In this document: positions 975 to 51,873 of the stretch, piece by piece
Numbering within the stretch: the stretch's first letter is position 1
Layout: the number at the start of each line of letters is the position of its first letter
Source of the DNA: Verrucomicrobiia bacterium
GTDB taxonomy: Bacteria > Verrucomicrobiota > Verrucomicrobiia > Verrucomicrobiales > DEV007
NCBI GenBank assembly: GCA_030427505.1
Contig: JAUICH010000001.1
Coordinates: 1 to 64,000 of the forward strand
Direction: 5' to 3'
DNA length: 64,000 nt
Notes under the pieces: generated by a model
The model's input: the letters and a program-made list of their open reading frames with translations, nothing else
Told to the model about the DNA's origin: nothing
The model's database searches: none
Program-made: the position numbers and the translations under genes

Positions 975-3155
975 CTAATCCTCATACTCATCCGGCGGTT
1001 CCACGGAGAGCCGGTCGATGAGGGCGTTCAGTTTGTCGTCCGTGATGCCGGGCACTTTCAGGAGATCGTCAAAGGAGTTGTAGGGTCGCGCGGCGATGAT
1101 GTTCCGGGCCATGGAGGGGCCGATCCCCGCCAGGGTCTGAAGCTCTTCTTCCGTGGCCGTGTTCACATTGACGATGGGGCCGGACGCCTGGCAGTAGTCG
1201 AGCGGCAGTTCCTCTTCGGTTTCTTCCTTAAACGAAGTAGAGGAGGATTCTTCTTCGCCAGGCGGTTCCGCAGCTTCCGCGTCGCCTGGTTCCGGGGAGG
1301 CGGATTTGGCTGAGCCGGGTTCTCGAGGGACGGTGCCTTCTATATAGGCGCCGCCGGGAGCGTCCGGGTTTTGCTTTGTTTCGTCACGGTCTTGGACCTC
1401 GCCTTCCTCCGTGTCTTCGTGATGTTCGTCAGTTTCACCATGCGGGTGTTGGTCCTTGTAGTGATCCTCCTCGTGCCAGTGGTGATGATCTTCGTCGTAC
1501 CAACTCTCGTCGTGGTCGTGATCGTGATACGGGTCGTGAGCGCCAATGCTGCCGGACGGACCCGTGTCGCCGGACTCGTCGTCCATGTCCTCGTGTTCGT
1601 TCTCGTCTTCGTAGAGATGGGCGTGCTCCCGCTCGTATTGCTCGATTTCGTGGCGGTGGAGTTCTTCCTTCTCATCCTCCGACAGGTCATCCCGGCGTTT
1701 ATCGTAGAGCAGGCGCAGCCGTTCCTTTCGGGCCGCCTCTTCCTCGGCTTCTTGTTTCTCCCGGGACCGTTCGATCATCCAGGCAATCCAGATACACAGC
1801 TCATAGAGGAAAATCATGGGCGCGGCCAGCAGACCCAGGGTCAGAGCGTCCGGCGGTGTGACGACGGCAGAGAAAATGATGATGATGATCCACGCGTATG
1901 AACGCGTCGCCCGCATGGTGCGGGCCGTCAGCATTTCCAACTTGGAAAGGATCATGACCACCAGAGGCATTTGAAAGGCCAGGCCGAAGACGATGGTCAA
2001 TTGCGTGACGAAGCCAAGGTAGTCCCCGATGCGGTACTGAATGCCCGCCAACTGTGTCAGGACCAGTTTGTCCTGTTGCTGGTCGTACTTCAGCTTGATG
2101 TCCGTTCCTTCCTCAATGACGAGGAAATCCAGGAGGTACTCGCGAACTGCCGACTTCATGGCCGGTTCCAGTTCCTTTGGCTTGGCCTGCGTCTCAGCTG
2201 GCTCCGGTCCCGGGGTTGTTTCCGGGGCGGGCGCTGGTTCTGGAGCCGCGGCTGGTTCGGGCGTGGCTGTTGGTTTGGGAGTGGCAACTGGAACCGAGTC
2301 CGGGGCGTTCGCGGAATCTGGATCTGGGACCGTTTCTGGTTTCGGGGCAGGAACCGCGGCCGGAGGTGCTTTGGCGGGGGTCTCTTCCACCTTCGGCCCG
2401 GGTGCGTTTTCCGGAGCCGGGGCGTTCGTGGGGGCCTCTTCGACCTTGTCGTTCCCCTCTTCCTTGGCGTCACCCGTTGTGGCGTTGTCCTTGTCCGCTG
2501 GCTCTTCCCCGGTAATCACCTTGGTCGCTTCTTCGAGGGTGGTGGTGGGAACCTCCGTCCAGTCCCGCAGCACTGGGATGTATTTTCGCTCTTCTACTTG
2601 GGAGGCGGTCGCCGTCTGCGTTCGTTCCAATTGGAAGGCGTAGAAAAATTTCAGGGCGATGGGGATGACCGCGAAGAAAGAAAACGAAGCCCCCACCAGG
2701 AACAGGAAAAACCCCACGCCGATGCCGGGAATGATGTAGCGCTTTTCCTCCTGCTTGAGCCCCGGCATGATGAACTCGCCGGCGAAGTAAACCAGCAGCG
2801 GAAACGCCAGGATGATGCCGGCATAGAATGCCGCCTTGATCGCCAGGACGAAGAATTCCTGCGGACTCAGGCCGACGAATTGGGCCCGTTCGAAAAGCGT
2901 GCTGCCGTCGTCGAACTTCGCGAGTTTCGCCGGGTATTGGATGAATTCGAAGATCTGCTTGTTGAAGACAAAGGTCAGGACGGTCGTGACCAGCAGGGCC
3001 CCGATCATCTTCATCAGCGTGATCCGGAGGTCTTCCAGGTGGTCCAGGAAAGGCTTCTCGTATGGATCGAATCCGTCGTCGGCGCCGGGCCGATGATGTC
3101 GTTTCCCGGCGTCTTCGCGAATCTTGAAAAGCCGTTTGAGGGCGGGTTGCAGCAT
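975..3155 (-). CDS. tatC: TatC translocase subunit with periplasmic insertion, His-rich tail and HhH domain
   Basis: TatC is the signal-peptide receptor of the twin-arginine export system. The protein is 726 residues, against roughly 250 for usual TatC. The cytoplasmic signature FLDHLEDLR lies at 36-44, followed by six membrane segments near 50-72, 103-128, 143-172, 378-403, 420-435 and 438-460. Between segments 3 and 4, in the second periplasmic loop, is an insertion of about 180 residues dominated by Pro, Ala and Glu (about 200-340). After the last segment comes a charged helix, an Asp/Glu/His-rich stretch (about 495-580, with HDHDHD and DHHHW), an acidic linker, and a ComEA-like helix-hairpin-helix domain at about 660-717 (VNVNTATEEELQTL, then GIGPSMARNIIAAR). 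By TatC topology the tail should be cytoplasmic. No tatA/tatB lies in the window. The stop codon sits in a direct repeat flanking the 433-970 element. Confidence 0.92.
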   Translation of the reverse strand: MLQPALKRLFKIREDAGKRHHRPGADDGFDPYEKPFLDHLEDLRITLMKMIGALLVTTVLTFVFNKQIFEFIQYPAKLAKFDDGSTLFERAQFVGLSPQEFFVLAIKAAFYAGIILAFPLLVYFAGEFIMPGLKQEEKRYIIPGIGVGFFLFLVGASFSFFAVIPIALKFFYAFQLERTQTATASQVEERKYIPVLRDWTEVPTTTLEEATKVITGEEPADKDNATTGDAKEEGNDKVEEAPTNAPAPENAPGPKVEETPAKAPPAAVPAPKPETVPDPDSANAPDSVPVATPKPTATPEPAAAPEPAPAPETTPGPEPAETQAKPKELEPAMKSAVREYLLDFLVIEEGTDIKLKYDQQQDKLVLTQLAGIQYRIGDYLGFVTQLTIVFGLAFQMPLVVMILSKLEMLTARTMRATRSYAWIIIIIFSAVVTPPDALTLGLLAAPMIFLYELCIWIAWMIERSREKQEAEEEAARKERLRLLYDKRRDDLSEDEKEELHRHEIEQYEREHAHLYEDENEHEDMDDESGDTGPSGSIGAHDPYHDHDHDESWYDEDHHHWHEEDHYKDQHPHGETDEHHEDTEEGEVQDRDETKQNPDAPGGAYIEGTVPREPGSAKSASPEPGDAEAAEPPGEEESSSTSFKEETEEELPLDYCQASGPIVNVNTATEEELQTLAGIGPSMARNIIAARPYNSFDDLLKVPGITDDKLNALIDRLSVEPPDEYED

Positions 3156-5279: not shown

Positions 5280-5741
5280 TTATTTGTCAGCCCGCTTGCA
5301 GTGGCCGGTGGAGGCCATTTCCTCGCAGTGGGCCTCGATGCGCAGATTCTTCGAACTGGGGCGGAAACCCAGGCGCCGGGTAATACAGTCCTCCAGCACC
5401 TCCATGTGTTCGTCGGAAAATTCCACCACCGAATTGCAGTCCAGGCAGATCAGGTGGTTGTGATTGGGGTGATCCAGGAAGTTCGGATCATAGTATTTCT
5501 GGTCCCGGCCCAAGTCGATTTCCTGGAGGAGCCCGCTTTCCACCAGCAGGGCCAGGGTCCGGTAGAGAGTGGCGCGGGAAGTCGCGGGATCGATCCGGCG
5601 GGACATGTCCCACAGCTCGTCAGCCGTGAAGTGCTCCGTGGTGCCGAAAGCCGCCTCCACGATCACGTCGCGTTGCGCCGTGCGGCGTAGCCCTTTCTTC
5701 CTGATAAATTCGTCAAACCGAGACTGGATAGCCTTGTCCAT
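5280..5741 (-). CDS. fur: Fur-family transcriptional regulator
   Basis: A 153-residue metal-dependent repressor with the N-terminal winged helix (about 1-85, including TSRATLYRTLALLVESGLL) and a C-terminal dimerisation and metal domain. The motif HNHLICLDC supplies a CxxC pair, and two further cysteines lie near the C terminus (HCEEM, GHCK), as in zinc-structured Fur proteins. A strong ribosome binding site (AGGAAAGGG) ends a few bases before the ATG at 5739-5741. It could be Fur, Zur or PerR; the target metal cannot be settled from the motifs. It is upstream of argH on the same strand with an 87-base gap and divergent from the M23 gene. Confidence 0.85.
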   Translation of the reverse strand: MDKAIQSRFDEFIRKKGLRRTAQRDVIVEAAFGTTEHFTADELWDMSRRIDPATSRATLYRTLALLVESGLLQEIDLGRDQKYYDPNFLDHPNHNHLICLDCNSVVEFSDEHMEVLEDCITRRLGFRPSSKNLRIEAHCEEMASTGHCKRADK

Positions 5742-48707: not shown

Positions 48708-49433
48708 CTACTGAGCAATCCGCGCGTACTCCCGCTGCACGCGGCTGATGAACCAGTTCCAGGTGGCTCCGGGCTTACCATTTTCGAGCAGGAAATGAGG
48801 GCAGTTTTTGTTCGGCGGGTCGTACTTGTAGCGGGGCCAGTGGTAGTGTGGCACCACGTTGGAAATGGGGATGTGGTGATAGTACATTAGGGAGGCCGTG
48901 AGCTTGGCCGTGCGGTCCATGGTGCGTAGCATGTCATTGCCCCGGTGCTCGCACATTTCGATACCGATGGAGTAGTTGTTCCCTGGTCCGTCAAAGTCCG
49001 CGTGTTCACCCTGTTCGTTGGTGGGCATGTGCTGGATGACCACGTCTTCCTGCACCGTGAAATGCCAGATCAGGTAGCCGGTGCGCCCGCCGCGGAGGGC
49101 GCCGCGGTGCAGGGCCTTGGCGTGGTCCCAGGCGTCTCCCGTGGGGTTCTGGGTGCTGTGGATGGTAATATAGCGCGGCGTCATGGGCCGGTTGTATTTC
49201 CGGCCATAGCGGCCCTTGGGCACGAAGGATTGCCTCAGGTTGATCTCCCGCGTCAATTGCGCCGCCGGGATGCGGTGGGTGGATACGGGGCCCATGGCGG
49301 CCTCCCAGGAACTGGCTCGAGACGAGGAACCCGTGCCGGCGCAGCCGGTTAGGAGATAAGCCAAACCACAGAGGGCAAGCAGCTTGACAACTCGTTGGCG
49401 AAGAACGGCGCGGAGCACGCGGGTAAGAAGCAT
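48708..49433 (-). CDS. N-acetylmuramoyl-L-alanine amidase, lipoprotein
   Basis: 241 residues with a signal peptide and lipobox at C31 (LLTGCAG). The amidase_2 domain has zinc-ligand-like histidines: ITIHSTQNP, WHFTVQED and NKNCPHF. It would cleave the amide bond between muramic acid and the peptide in peptidoglycan. It sits on the minus strand opposite the hydrolase gene. Confidence 0.85.
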   Translation of the reverse strand: MLLTRVLRAVLRQRVVKLLALCGLAYLLTGCAGTGSSSRASSWEAAMGPVSTHRIPAAQLTREINLRQSFVPKGRYGRKYNRPMTPRYITIHSTQNPTGDAWDHAKALHRGALRGGRTGYLIWHFTVQEDVVIQHMPTNEQGEHADFDGPGNNYSIGIEMCEHRGNDMLRTMDRTAKLTASLMYYHHIPISNVVPHYHWPRYKYDPPNKNCPHFLLENGKPGATWNWFISRVQREYARIAQ

Positions 49434-49617
49434 GGAGCAACGTAGCCGGTCAAGCGGGAAAGGCGTCCGTGAAATCGTCTCCCCCCCTGACCGGCCGCCT
49501 TTTTGGCCACAGTCCCCCCAAGTTGCCCGATTGGAAAAACCTCTGGCTTCGAAAGGGCAGTCTCTCTATGAAAGAGGTGAATCATCAACGGCTCCAACAC
49601 CTGACCCCTACGCTTCC

Positions 49618-51873
49618 ATGCACCCACGGCTCTGCCATTGTTTCGTTGGCCTCCTTGCCGCCTTTCTTTCATCCGCAACCGGCCAAGCCGCCCCGCGCGC
49701 GTTACCTGAAGGCGTCCTGCCCGCCGATTCCCGTTTGGGAGAACTGACCACGCTGAATGACTACCACCCCTTCCGGCCGGTGGCTTCCGCCGCGGACTGG
49801 GAGATCCGGCGGGAAGAAATCGTCCGCCGCGTCCAAGTGGGGGCGGGGCTGTGGCCCATGCCAGAAAAAACGCCGCTGAACGCCGTGATTCACGGCGCCA
49901 TCGACATGGGGGACTACACCGTGGAGAAAGTGTATTTCGAATCTCTGCCCGGTCACTTGGTGACGGGCAATCTCTACCGGCCCAAGGGGAAGAAACCGGG
50001 GCCGGAAGGTTACCCCGGAGTGTTGTGCCCGCACGGGCACTGGGCGAACTCCCGTTTTTACGATCTGGAGGCCAGCGGCGGAGAGAAAGCGGTAAAGGAA
50101 CTCCTCGCCATCGGCGCGGAGCGATTCTGGAACGGCGCCCGCAACCACATCCAGGCGCGTTGCGTGCAACTCGCCCGCATGGGCTGCGTGGTCTTTCACT
50201 ATGATATGATCGGCTACTCGGATTCGCTGCAATTTCCCGAGCACCGCGAAGGCCCTCGCGACAAAATGAACGATCCCGGTTGGGGAAAATGGGGCCTGGT
50301 CAGTCCCCGGGCCGGTGCGTGGCTGCAGACCCACTTTGGGCTTCAGACCTGGAACAGCGAGCGCTCCCTGGACTTTCTGTTGGAGCAGCCGGAGGTGGAT
50401 AAGGACAGGATACTGGTTACTGGCGCCAGCGGCGGAGCCACTCAGACGATGATGCTCACCGCCATTGATTCCCGGGTGGACGCGGCCTTCCCCGCCGTCA
50501 TGACCTCCACCGCCATGCAGGGTGGCTGCACCTGCGAGAACACTTTCTACCTCCGCATCGGCCAGGGAAACGTGGACATCGCCGCCACCACCGCGCCGCG
50601 CCCGCTGGGGATCACTTCAGCGGACGACTGGACCATTGAGTTGGAGGAGAAGGGCTACCCGGACTTGTTTAATCTCTTCGCCATGGTGGGCGCGAAAAAC
50701 CATTTCGAGGCGCATTTTAATACGCAGTTCAAGCATAACTACAATTATGTGTCTCGCGAGCAAATGTATCAATTCGTGAACCAGCATTTCGGTCTGGGTC
50801 TTGAAGAACCGGTGCTGGAAAGCGACTTCGAATACCTCGGCGAAGAACAGCTCACCGTGTTTGACGAGGCGCACCCCCGGCCCTCCGGCGATCAAACAGG
50901 CGATGCTCACGAACGGCACGTCTGCGAATGGTGGGCGGCGGACGCCCGCAAACAAATCGCGCCGCTCCTGGCGCCGGAAGATGCTGAAACGCTCGTCAAA
51001 GCGCGGGACGTGCTGGGCGGAGCCGTGTCGGTCATGATCGGCCGGACCGTGCCGCTGGCGGCGGACGTGAGTTTCGATCTTTCGGAAAAGGAAGAGAAAC
51101 CCGGTTACACCCTCCTGACCGGCCTGGTAAGAAACGACAAACACGGAGAAGAAATTCCCGCCGCTTTCGCCCACCCGGCAAACTGGAGCGGCCAGGTGGT
51201 TCTGTGGATCTTCCCGGAGGGAAAAGCCGGGATGTTCGAAGGCGGTGGCGCACTGATACCCGCAGTGCAAAAGCTGGTGGACCAGGGAGTGGCGGTGATG
51301 GGAGCGGACCTGCTCTACCAGGGAGAGTTTCTGAACCCTGGGGAAGAGGTGACCGAAAACCGCCGGGTGTCCTACCCTGGTAGTGCGGACAAACCCGGCC
51401 AGTCCTGGCGGGCTTCTTCCGTTTACCGCTATGGCTACAACGACGCCGTGTTTGCCCAGCGGGTGCATGATATTCTGACCTGCATCAGCTTTGTCCGGAA
51501 TCACGAAAAGTGGGACGTGAAGCGTCTTTCCGTGGTGGGGCTGGAAGGCGCGGGGCATTGGGTGGCCGCCGCCCGGGCCGTTGCGGGCAGCGACATCGAC
51601 CGGGCCGCCATCCGCACGGAAGACTTCCGCTTCGCGAACCTAAGCTCTGACTGGGACATCGATTTCCTTCCCGGCGCCGTGAAGTATGGCGACGTGGCGG
51701 GCTTTCTGGTTCTCTCAGCGCCGGACTCCCTCTGGCTGGCTGACAATGACGAAACCCTCCGCTCCCACCTGACCGCCACCTACCAGACCGCGGGCAGCCC
51801 GGACGCGCTGCATTTTTACGGCGGTACCCCGGGCGACCTGACTCAGTCCGTGGTGGACTACCTGACAAAGTAA
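49618..51873 (+). CDS. Secreted alpha/beta hydrolase (acetylxylan esterase-like)
   Basis: 751 residues with a signal peptide (about 1-25). The esterase domain has the nucleophile elbow GASGGATQT (S271) and region LCPHGHWANSRFYD. A long C-terminal region may be a second hydrolase-like domain (GLEGAGHWVAAARAVAG). The ATG at 49618 is chosen because a signal peptide begins there. It may deacetylate polysaccharides; no substrate is known. The next gene starts 27 bases downstream. Confidence 0.75.
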   Translation: MHPRLCHCFVGLLAAFLSSATGQAAPRALPEGVLPADSRLGELTTLNDYHPFRPVASAADWEIRREEIVRRVQVGAGLWPMPEKTPLNAVIHGAIDMGDYTVEKVYFESLPGHLVTGNLYRPKGKKPGPEGYPGVLCPHGHWANSRFYDLEASGGEKAVKELLAIGAERFWNGARNHIQARCVQLARMGCVVFHYDMIGYSDSLQFPEHREGPRDKMNDPGWGKWGLVSPRAGAWLQTHFGLQTWNSERSLDFLLEQPEVDKDRILVTGASGGATQTMMLTAIDSRVDAAFPAVMTSTAMQGGCTCENTFYLRIGQGNVDIAATTAPRPLGITSADDWTIELEEKGYPDLFNLFAMVGAKNHFEAHFNTQFKHNYNYVSREQMYQFVNQHFGLGLEEPVLESDFEYLGEEQLTVFDEAHPRPSGDQTGDAHERHVCEWWAADARKQIAPLLAPEDAETLVKARDVLGGAVSVMIGRTVPLAADVSFDLSEKEEKPGYTLLTGLVRNDKHGEEIPAAFAHPANWSGQVVLWIFPEGKAGMFEGGGALIPAVQKLVDQGVAVMGADLLYQGEFLNPGEEVTENRRVSYPGSADKPGQSWRASSVYRYGYNDAVFAQRVHDILTCISFVRNHEKWDVKRLSVVGLEGAGHWVAAARAVAGSDIDRAAIRTEDFRFANLSSDWDIDFLPGAVKYGDVAGFLVLSAPDSLWLADNDETLRSHLTATYQTAGSPDALHFYGGTPGDLTQSVVDYLTK

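Follow-up and report, generated by a model that had tools for sequence, protein, structure and literature searches.

Knowledge of Tat structures and mechanisms rests, in our impression, mostly on TatC proteins with short tails. The Tat mechanism has been reviewed (PMC13186574), TatBC is trimeric (PMC13323110), and a flexible cytoplasmic tail has been drawn for each Tat protein (PMC10092561). Enlarged TatC proteins are known from M. xanthus (9E03) and N. salsuginis (9E02). Their periplasmic inserts are large and unrelated; they are ordered and trimeric in M. xanthus and disordered in N. salsuginis (PMC13323110). The 9E02 and 9E03 chains end about 31 and about 14 residues, respectively, after the stretch matched by our protein, and the sections of that report consulted here do not mention a helix-hairpin-helix (HhH) tail. 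For the HhH domain itself, the closest described counterpart is ComEA (2duy, 8dss), in which the K166A substitution abolishes DNA binding (PMC9747964). The HhH pair of Pasteurella ComE1 binds both fibronectin and DNA, so that protein binding by HhH domains has a precedent, albeit one that is not exclusive of DNA (PMC2601033). Similar small folds are found inside protein complexes in PsbU (photosystem II) and GspK (type II secretion). PsbU and GspK are extracytoplasmic proteins, in a context unrelated to that of a TatC.

The protein considered here, a TatC with an acidic His-rich arm and an HhH cap, is found in one family of the Verrucomicrobiales. In agreement with the sequence-only reading, to which a DNA- or metal-linked translocase was not a known Tat architecture, no TatC-HhH protein appeared among the matches listed in the open-licence PMC literature, subscription journals lying outside this scope. 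The gene is located at the start of contig C6, within the window, that is the whole stretch of 64,000 nucleotides analysed, and consists of a single open frame from ATG to TAG (Table 1). Its product scores above the cut-offs of both Pfam PF00902 (E 1.1e-54, 185.8 bits for a cut-off of 25.1, in two stretches) and NCBIfam TIGR00945 (165.7 bits for 132.7), and it is the sole PF00902 match of the 6.4-Mb assembly (96.5% complete). TatA/B partners are present as two adjacent PF02416 genes on contig C43; two tatA/B genes at a separate locus are also what a study of TatC diversity tabled for Verrucomicrobia (PMC3827258).

The two halves of the core keep several TatC hallmarks. In the alignment with A. 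aeolicus TatC (4b4a), the loop Phe and Glu fall on F128 and E137, and the PPD motif of the TM5-6 region is retained (P434-D436, read from the sequence). We take these two loop positions to be those of E. coli F94 and E103, with the functional roles generally attributed to the latter. The TM4 Glu of A. aeolicus TatC is replaced by Q395; since this is a single residue, and one that is not invariant in TatC, membership of the family is left standing. In E. coli, F94 and E103 are named TatC mutants, and E170 is the equivalent of the A. aeolicus TM4 residue E165 (PMC10092561). The PF00902 match is in two pieces because about 189 residues sit in periplasmic loop P2. This insert, together with the 261-residue HhH tail and the TM4 Gln, sets the protein apart from described TatC. 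The identification of a TatC carrying a composite tail, as proposed in the sequence-only reading, is borne out by matches above cut-off in one intact frame of 726 residues, whereas the core that it took to be complete is interrupted by an insert that it had missed. Upstream of the core, the predicted helix of the N-terminal extension is followed by a conserved GAD.GFDP.EKPFLDHLEDLR leading into TatC. The full-length AF2 model has a mean pLDDT of 43, with 530 of the 726 residues below 50; it contains long helices in places that fit transmembrane segments.

Table 1. Parts of the HhH-tailed TatC and neighbouring FUR-family gene, in window coordinates
Feature	Position	Strand	Basis
tatC-HhH gene, 726 aa, single open frame	975..3155	-	ORF and profile matches
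N-terminal extension, aa 1-32	3060..3155	-	helix 2-18 predicted (low confidence)
TatC core, first half, aa 38-181	2613..3044	-	PF00902
P2 insert, about 189 aa, aa ~182-370, Pro/Ala/Glu-rich	2046..2612	-	gap between PF00902 pieces
Conserved end of P2 insert, aa 331-368	2052..2165	-	helix and beta-hairpin predicted (low confidence)
TatC core, second half, aa 371-446	1818..2045	-	PF00902
Acidic tail helix, aa 466-516, consensus LSEEEKAELHRHEIEQYEREHAHLY	1608..1760	-	conserved in orthologues
His/Asp/Glu-rich linker, aa 517-600, HDESW at 548-552	1356..1607	-	alignment, composition
Pro/Glu/Ser acidic spacer, aa 601-654	1194..1355	-	composition
Cys655	1191..1193	-	alignment
HhH_3 (ComEA-fold) domain, Pfam match aa 661-715	1008..1175	-	PF12836, fold search
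FUR-family gene	5280-5741		domain match

After TM6, from residue 466 onwards, the tail has a net charge of -58 and contains 18 His. Considering the known topology of TatC, which we take to be six transmembrane segments with both ends inside, it would face the cytoplasm, as the sequence-only reading had placed it. The composition was compared with that of 49 long frames of the window, picked mechanically and some of them surely not genes. The maximal content in His, Asp and Glu per 60 residues is 37 in the focal frame and lies between 14 and 26 in the seven frames listed after it. For His per 60 residues the focal frame also ranks at the top of the 49, yet with 14 against 13 for the runner-up, so that the His count alone is unremarkable. 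The real support for the tail is homology, the orthologue alignment covering it along its length. Within it, EHAH[LWYF] is present in 25 of 41 TatC-HhH frames. A QY.REHAHL[YF]-like motif is common to the f1 HhH tails and to four tails of family f3 (L074, L087, L090, L093; IYRREHAHLF in L090), and the exact pattern QY.REHAHL occurs in the focal genome in tatC only.

In a set of 57 genomes, the HhH domain is in frame with the C-terminal half of TatC in 17, the focal one and 16 relatives, all of family f1; in G029 a contig end truncates the HhH-tailed TatC, and the in-frame HhH domain is absent from all 21 genomes of families f2-f6. How many TatC homologues carry the tail, a question raised by the sequence-only reading, was answered at a larger scale with a model of the tail: at least 42 of 386 genomes of the order have a match in a frame of at least 429 residues, all in f1 among the matches listed, and 210 genomes are without a match. 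When 387 genomes from across the phylum were searched with a threshold of E 1e-17, which would miss unrelated TatC-HhH fusions, the tail was recovered in the focal genome only; G406 matched by its HhH part alone, in a 300-residue frame. It is hardly credible, in these conditions, that an assembly or fusion artefact made the TatC-HhH protein. The end of tatC does lie less than 1 kb from the contig end and adjoins a repeated element. However, the focal frame is open and homologous along its tail, the tail recurs in frame in those at least 42 genomes, and the 16 HhH-tailed proteins in the TatC tree lie to one side of a supported branch. Frameshift, gene fusion and absence from close relatives, any of which would have undone the sequence-only reading, are thus all set aside.

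The tree, rooted at midpoint, contains 53 rows from the 57 genomes, G019 (no TatC match), G029 (split), G052 and G055 being left out. It has 16 HhH and 35 non-HhH rows, with two rows inside left unscored (G013 and G020, with matching pieces on other contigs). A single branch (support 95/94, recovered in 94% of 200 bootstrap trees) has all HhH-tailed TatC to one side. On this tree, long P2 inserts correspond to one change and long P1 inserts to four. Because three genomes have the HhH domain with a P1 insert and without a P2 insert (G017, G025, G032), and a fourth has it with neither (G008), gain of the HhH domain and of the P2 insert look like separate events. A neighbouring clade joins the HhH clade at weak support (80/69). 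In its TatC tails (L039, L041, L045, L048-L050, L057, L064, L065), a long charged helix replaces the HhH domain, following YYSGP in eight of nine cases and often with leucines every four residues. The end of the TatC tail of G002 (L036) gives a SAP-like match of 18.4 bits, under the cut-off of 26.3, and may be another borrowed small domain. That a ComEA encoded in the focal genome gave rise to the HhH domain was considered and set aside, as there is no other PF12836 match above cut-off in the genome and one below it. Finally, dN/dS of the HhH domain was estimated for 17 greedily chosen pairs, none from the focal genus. The eight pairs within a genus, which all belong to g2, have values of 0.07-0.38, so that the domain is under purifying selection there. 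The nine between-genus pairs give 0.31-1.04, dS being unreliable at this distance.

The cap matches PF12836 (HHH_3) with E 2.9e-15 and 56.6 bits for a cut-off of 27. Structure prediction of the cap alone, unlike the poor full-length model, agrees with the ComEA-like domain seen in the sequence-only reading: the cap model has a pLDDT of 76.8, and Foldseek and VIA-align both return a ComEA fold (Z 12.0, rmsd 2.2 Å over 63 aligned residues with 2duy; Z 11.7 with 8dss). Further down the list are, in this order, Tex (Z 9.3), which binds nucleic acid, PsbU (Z 7.5) and GspK (Z 6.4), the last two being weak likenesses, as Z values under 8 may mean little. The domain shares with ComEA the N.NTA.EEL..L.GIG start as well as the fold; it differs in being acidic, in having lost most of the Lys positions and in being fused to TatC. 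The ComEA models score below their cut-offs (TIGR01259, 43.3 for 152.35 bits; TIGR00426, 35.7 for 53.1), and the two PsbU models disagree, NF002708 being below (29.7 for 85 bits) and Pfam PF06514 above (29.5 for 24.5); at L044 the Pfam PsbU model even scores above HHH_3.

Could the cap bind DNA, as the sequence-only reading suggested in proposing a link between export and DNA? For the cap set, identical domains were collapsed, which left 41 in-frame domains for 42 genomes, TatC being assigned by a loose motif test and length; two HhH ends of split TatC genes (L070, L071) bring the set to 43, and the truncated focal copy L001 was excluded. The controls were 20 chosen free-standing HhH domains of mixed protein types, 19 from f1 and one from G406, for which DNA binding is not established. 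The median net charge is -6 in the caps (-14 to 0, n=43) against +1 in the controls (-8 to 4, n=20; Mann-Whitney p 5.6e-7). The second hairpin V[KNSR]GIG is found in 0 of 43 caps and 16 of 20 controls, and its G-h-G in 18 of 43 and 19 of 20. Four ComEA lysines, in G. stearothermophilus numbering, were mapped by the analyst from alignments and scored in full-length domains (41 of the 43 caps, all 20 controls). Basic residues at K201 (0/41 against 15/20) and K199 (17/41 against 18/20) distinguish the two groups, whereas those at K166 (0/41 against 1/20; M or L in 38/41 caps) and K195 (2/41 against 2/20) do not. One basic residue of the four is kept in 19 of 41 caps; the focal cap has M682, D707, A711 and I713 at these positions. 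DNA binding by the TatC caps thus appears unlikely on sequence grounds. A model in which the HhH domain would bind DNA non-specifically and anchor the sites of Tat export on the nucleoid, or couple them to the transcription of substrate genes, can draw on the fold and on hairpin 1, whose G-h-G is retained in 34 of 43 caps. Moreover, because the controls are basic at K166 in just one case out of 20, loss of that residue is weak evidence when taken alone. However, the acidic cap sits on an acidic arm, the second Gly of hairpin 1 is missing in 7 of 41 caps, K166 and K201 are never basic, the second hairpin motif is lost, and in ComEA itself the single K166A change suffices to kill DNA binding (PMC9747964). 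We regard such a DNA-tethered translocon as very unlikely, and the HhH domain has here probably left DNA binding.

The arm and its cap may rather represent the usual acidic tail of TatC in overgrown form, a flexible arm for docking with an HhH domain that would bind protein, and we hold this reading with about as much confidence as doubt. It is suggested by three observations: all 56 scored tails, drawn from 55 relatives within the order, are acidic regardless of how they end, from -1 (a tail of seven residues) to -79; the N. salsuginis TatC (9E02) likewise becomes acidic where its aligned part ends; and Tat tails are drawn as flexible (PMC10092561). The acidic arm would therefore be the constant element and the cap the variable one. 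The architecture, its place in one clade, the selection seen on the cap between members of one genus, its acidity and the lost DNA-binding features form the observed basis; the trimer of arms, their cytoplasmic side, the docking role and any partner are what we infer from it. TatC would probably be a working translocase component in which a short acidic tail was lengthened into a flexible arm ending in HhH, and, as TatC forms trimers, the signal-peptide receptor would have three arms hanging beneath it. The acidic helix and the His/Asp linker might act as a tether and as a landing zone that would attract twin-arginine precursors electrostatically, by their basic n-regions, or the chaperones of these precursors, while the cap might bind a protein partner or other caps, somewhat as PsbU and GspK folds do in their complexes. 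The focal genome has 43 DUF1501 matches above cut-off, one of them partial, and four of five examined, two of these in the window, carry a twin-arginine (RR) signal, so that the Tat load is probably high. Against docking, the focal cap keeps GIG in hairpin 1, between-genus dN/dS reaches 1.04, and some controls are as acidic as -8. No partner of the arm was found: searched against the focal genome, the tail helix gave, after itself, best matches at E 0.109 and 0.455. Conservation of an accessory receptor arm across several genera suggests that some bacteria with many Tat substrates add a cytoplasmic layer of docking or control.

Whether the arm has any specific job may also be asked. Growth of low-complexity sequence could have left arm and cap as lineage baggage. 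The linker varies widely in length and order, the between-genus dN/dS values point in the same direction, dS being unreliable there, and in family f2 the tails are of 7-24 residues only, so that the arm is not required for every TatC. However, different genera share the helix, HD...W, Cys and HhH as conserved cores, and the eight same-genus g2 pairs are under constraint; we consider neutral growth rather unlikely. A further view concerns the histidines and the cysteine, through which metal binding by the tail is plausible from composition. The linker and Cys would then bind Zn, Ni, Cu or Fe, and the arm would serve folded metalloproteins ahead of their export by storing metal, handing it on or sensing it. 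In its favor, His makes up 5.4-11.4% (median 8.8%) of 16 f1 HhH tails, the focal one (6.9%) being left out; 39 of 43 domains have a Cys at most three residues ahead of the HhH window, HD...W is found in 35 of 43, and a FUR-family gene lies in the window, with a match at 24 of 35 family loci (L035-L069). Against it, His positions move between species, only the composition being kept; two other families of the order, f4 and f6, have tails poor in His (medians 0%, n=6, and 1.2%); and the Cys is displaced or missing in g9 and g18 (4/43). Fur matches also adjoin TatC proteins without HhH and almost without His (L076, L082), and none was found at six HhH loci of g2/g11 (L035, L044, L052, L055, L059, L067). 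A metal-handling arm is, to our mind, possible but somewhat doubtful. Its elaboration into a metal- and redox-responsive gate, in which the His clusters and Cys655 would bind metal, the linker would fold, the HhH cap would move on or off the TatBC receptor and export of folded metalloproteins would follow cytoplasmic metal status, seems quite unlikely. Tails of f3 are His-rich (median 6.5%, n=5) without HhH, from which it follows that the two features are separable.

A link to Fur through gene order was tried and is weakened, argH and fur matches occurring at loci with and without HhH. For comparison with fur, argH has a match at 27 of the 35 family loci; these are hand counts of hits at E 1e-8, wherever in the locus they fall, and contig ends cut some of the loci.

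Several features surround the gene in the window. A 540-bp repeated element (432-971) has 30-bp inverted ends, 93% paired, and is flanked by a perfect 10-bp duplication, TGGCTAATCC, at 422-431 and 972-981. The duplication overlaps the tatC stop codon (975-977), leaving the end of tatC intact. Five other near full-length copies of the element (85-94% identity) and many partial ones exist in the genome. At 49384-51870, a frame of 829 residues without a Pfam match at E 1e-5 is a putative gene. The frame at 1-189, cut by the contig end, presumably belongs to an IS110-type transposase. Between 9519 and 20583 are two DUF1501 genes, both encoding RR signal peptides, as well as a pair of DUF1549/DUF1553 genes; one of this pair carries planctomycete cytochrome c and lectin-like domains.
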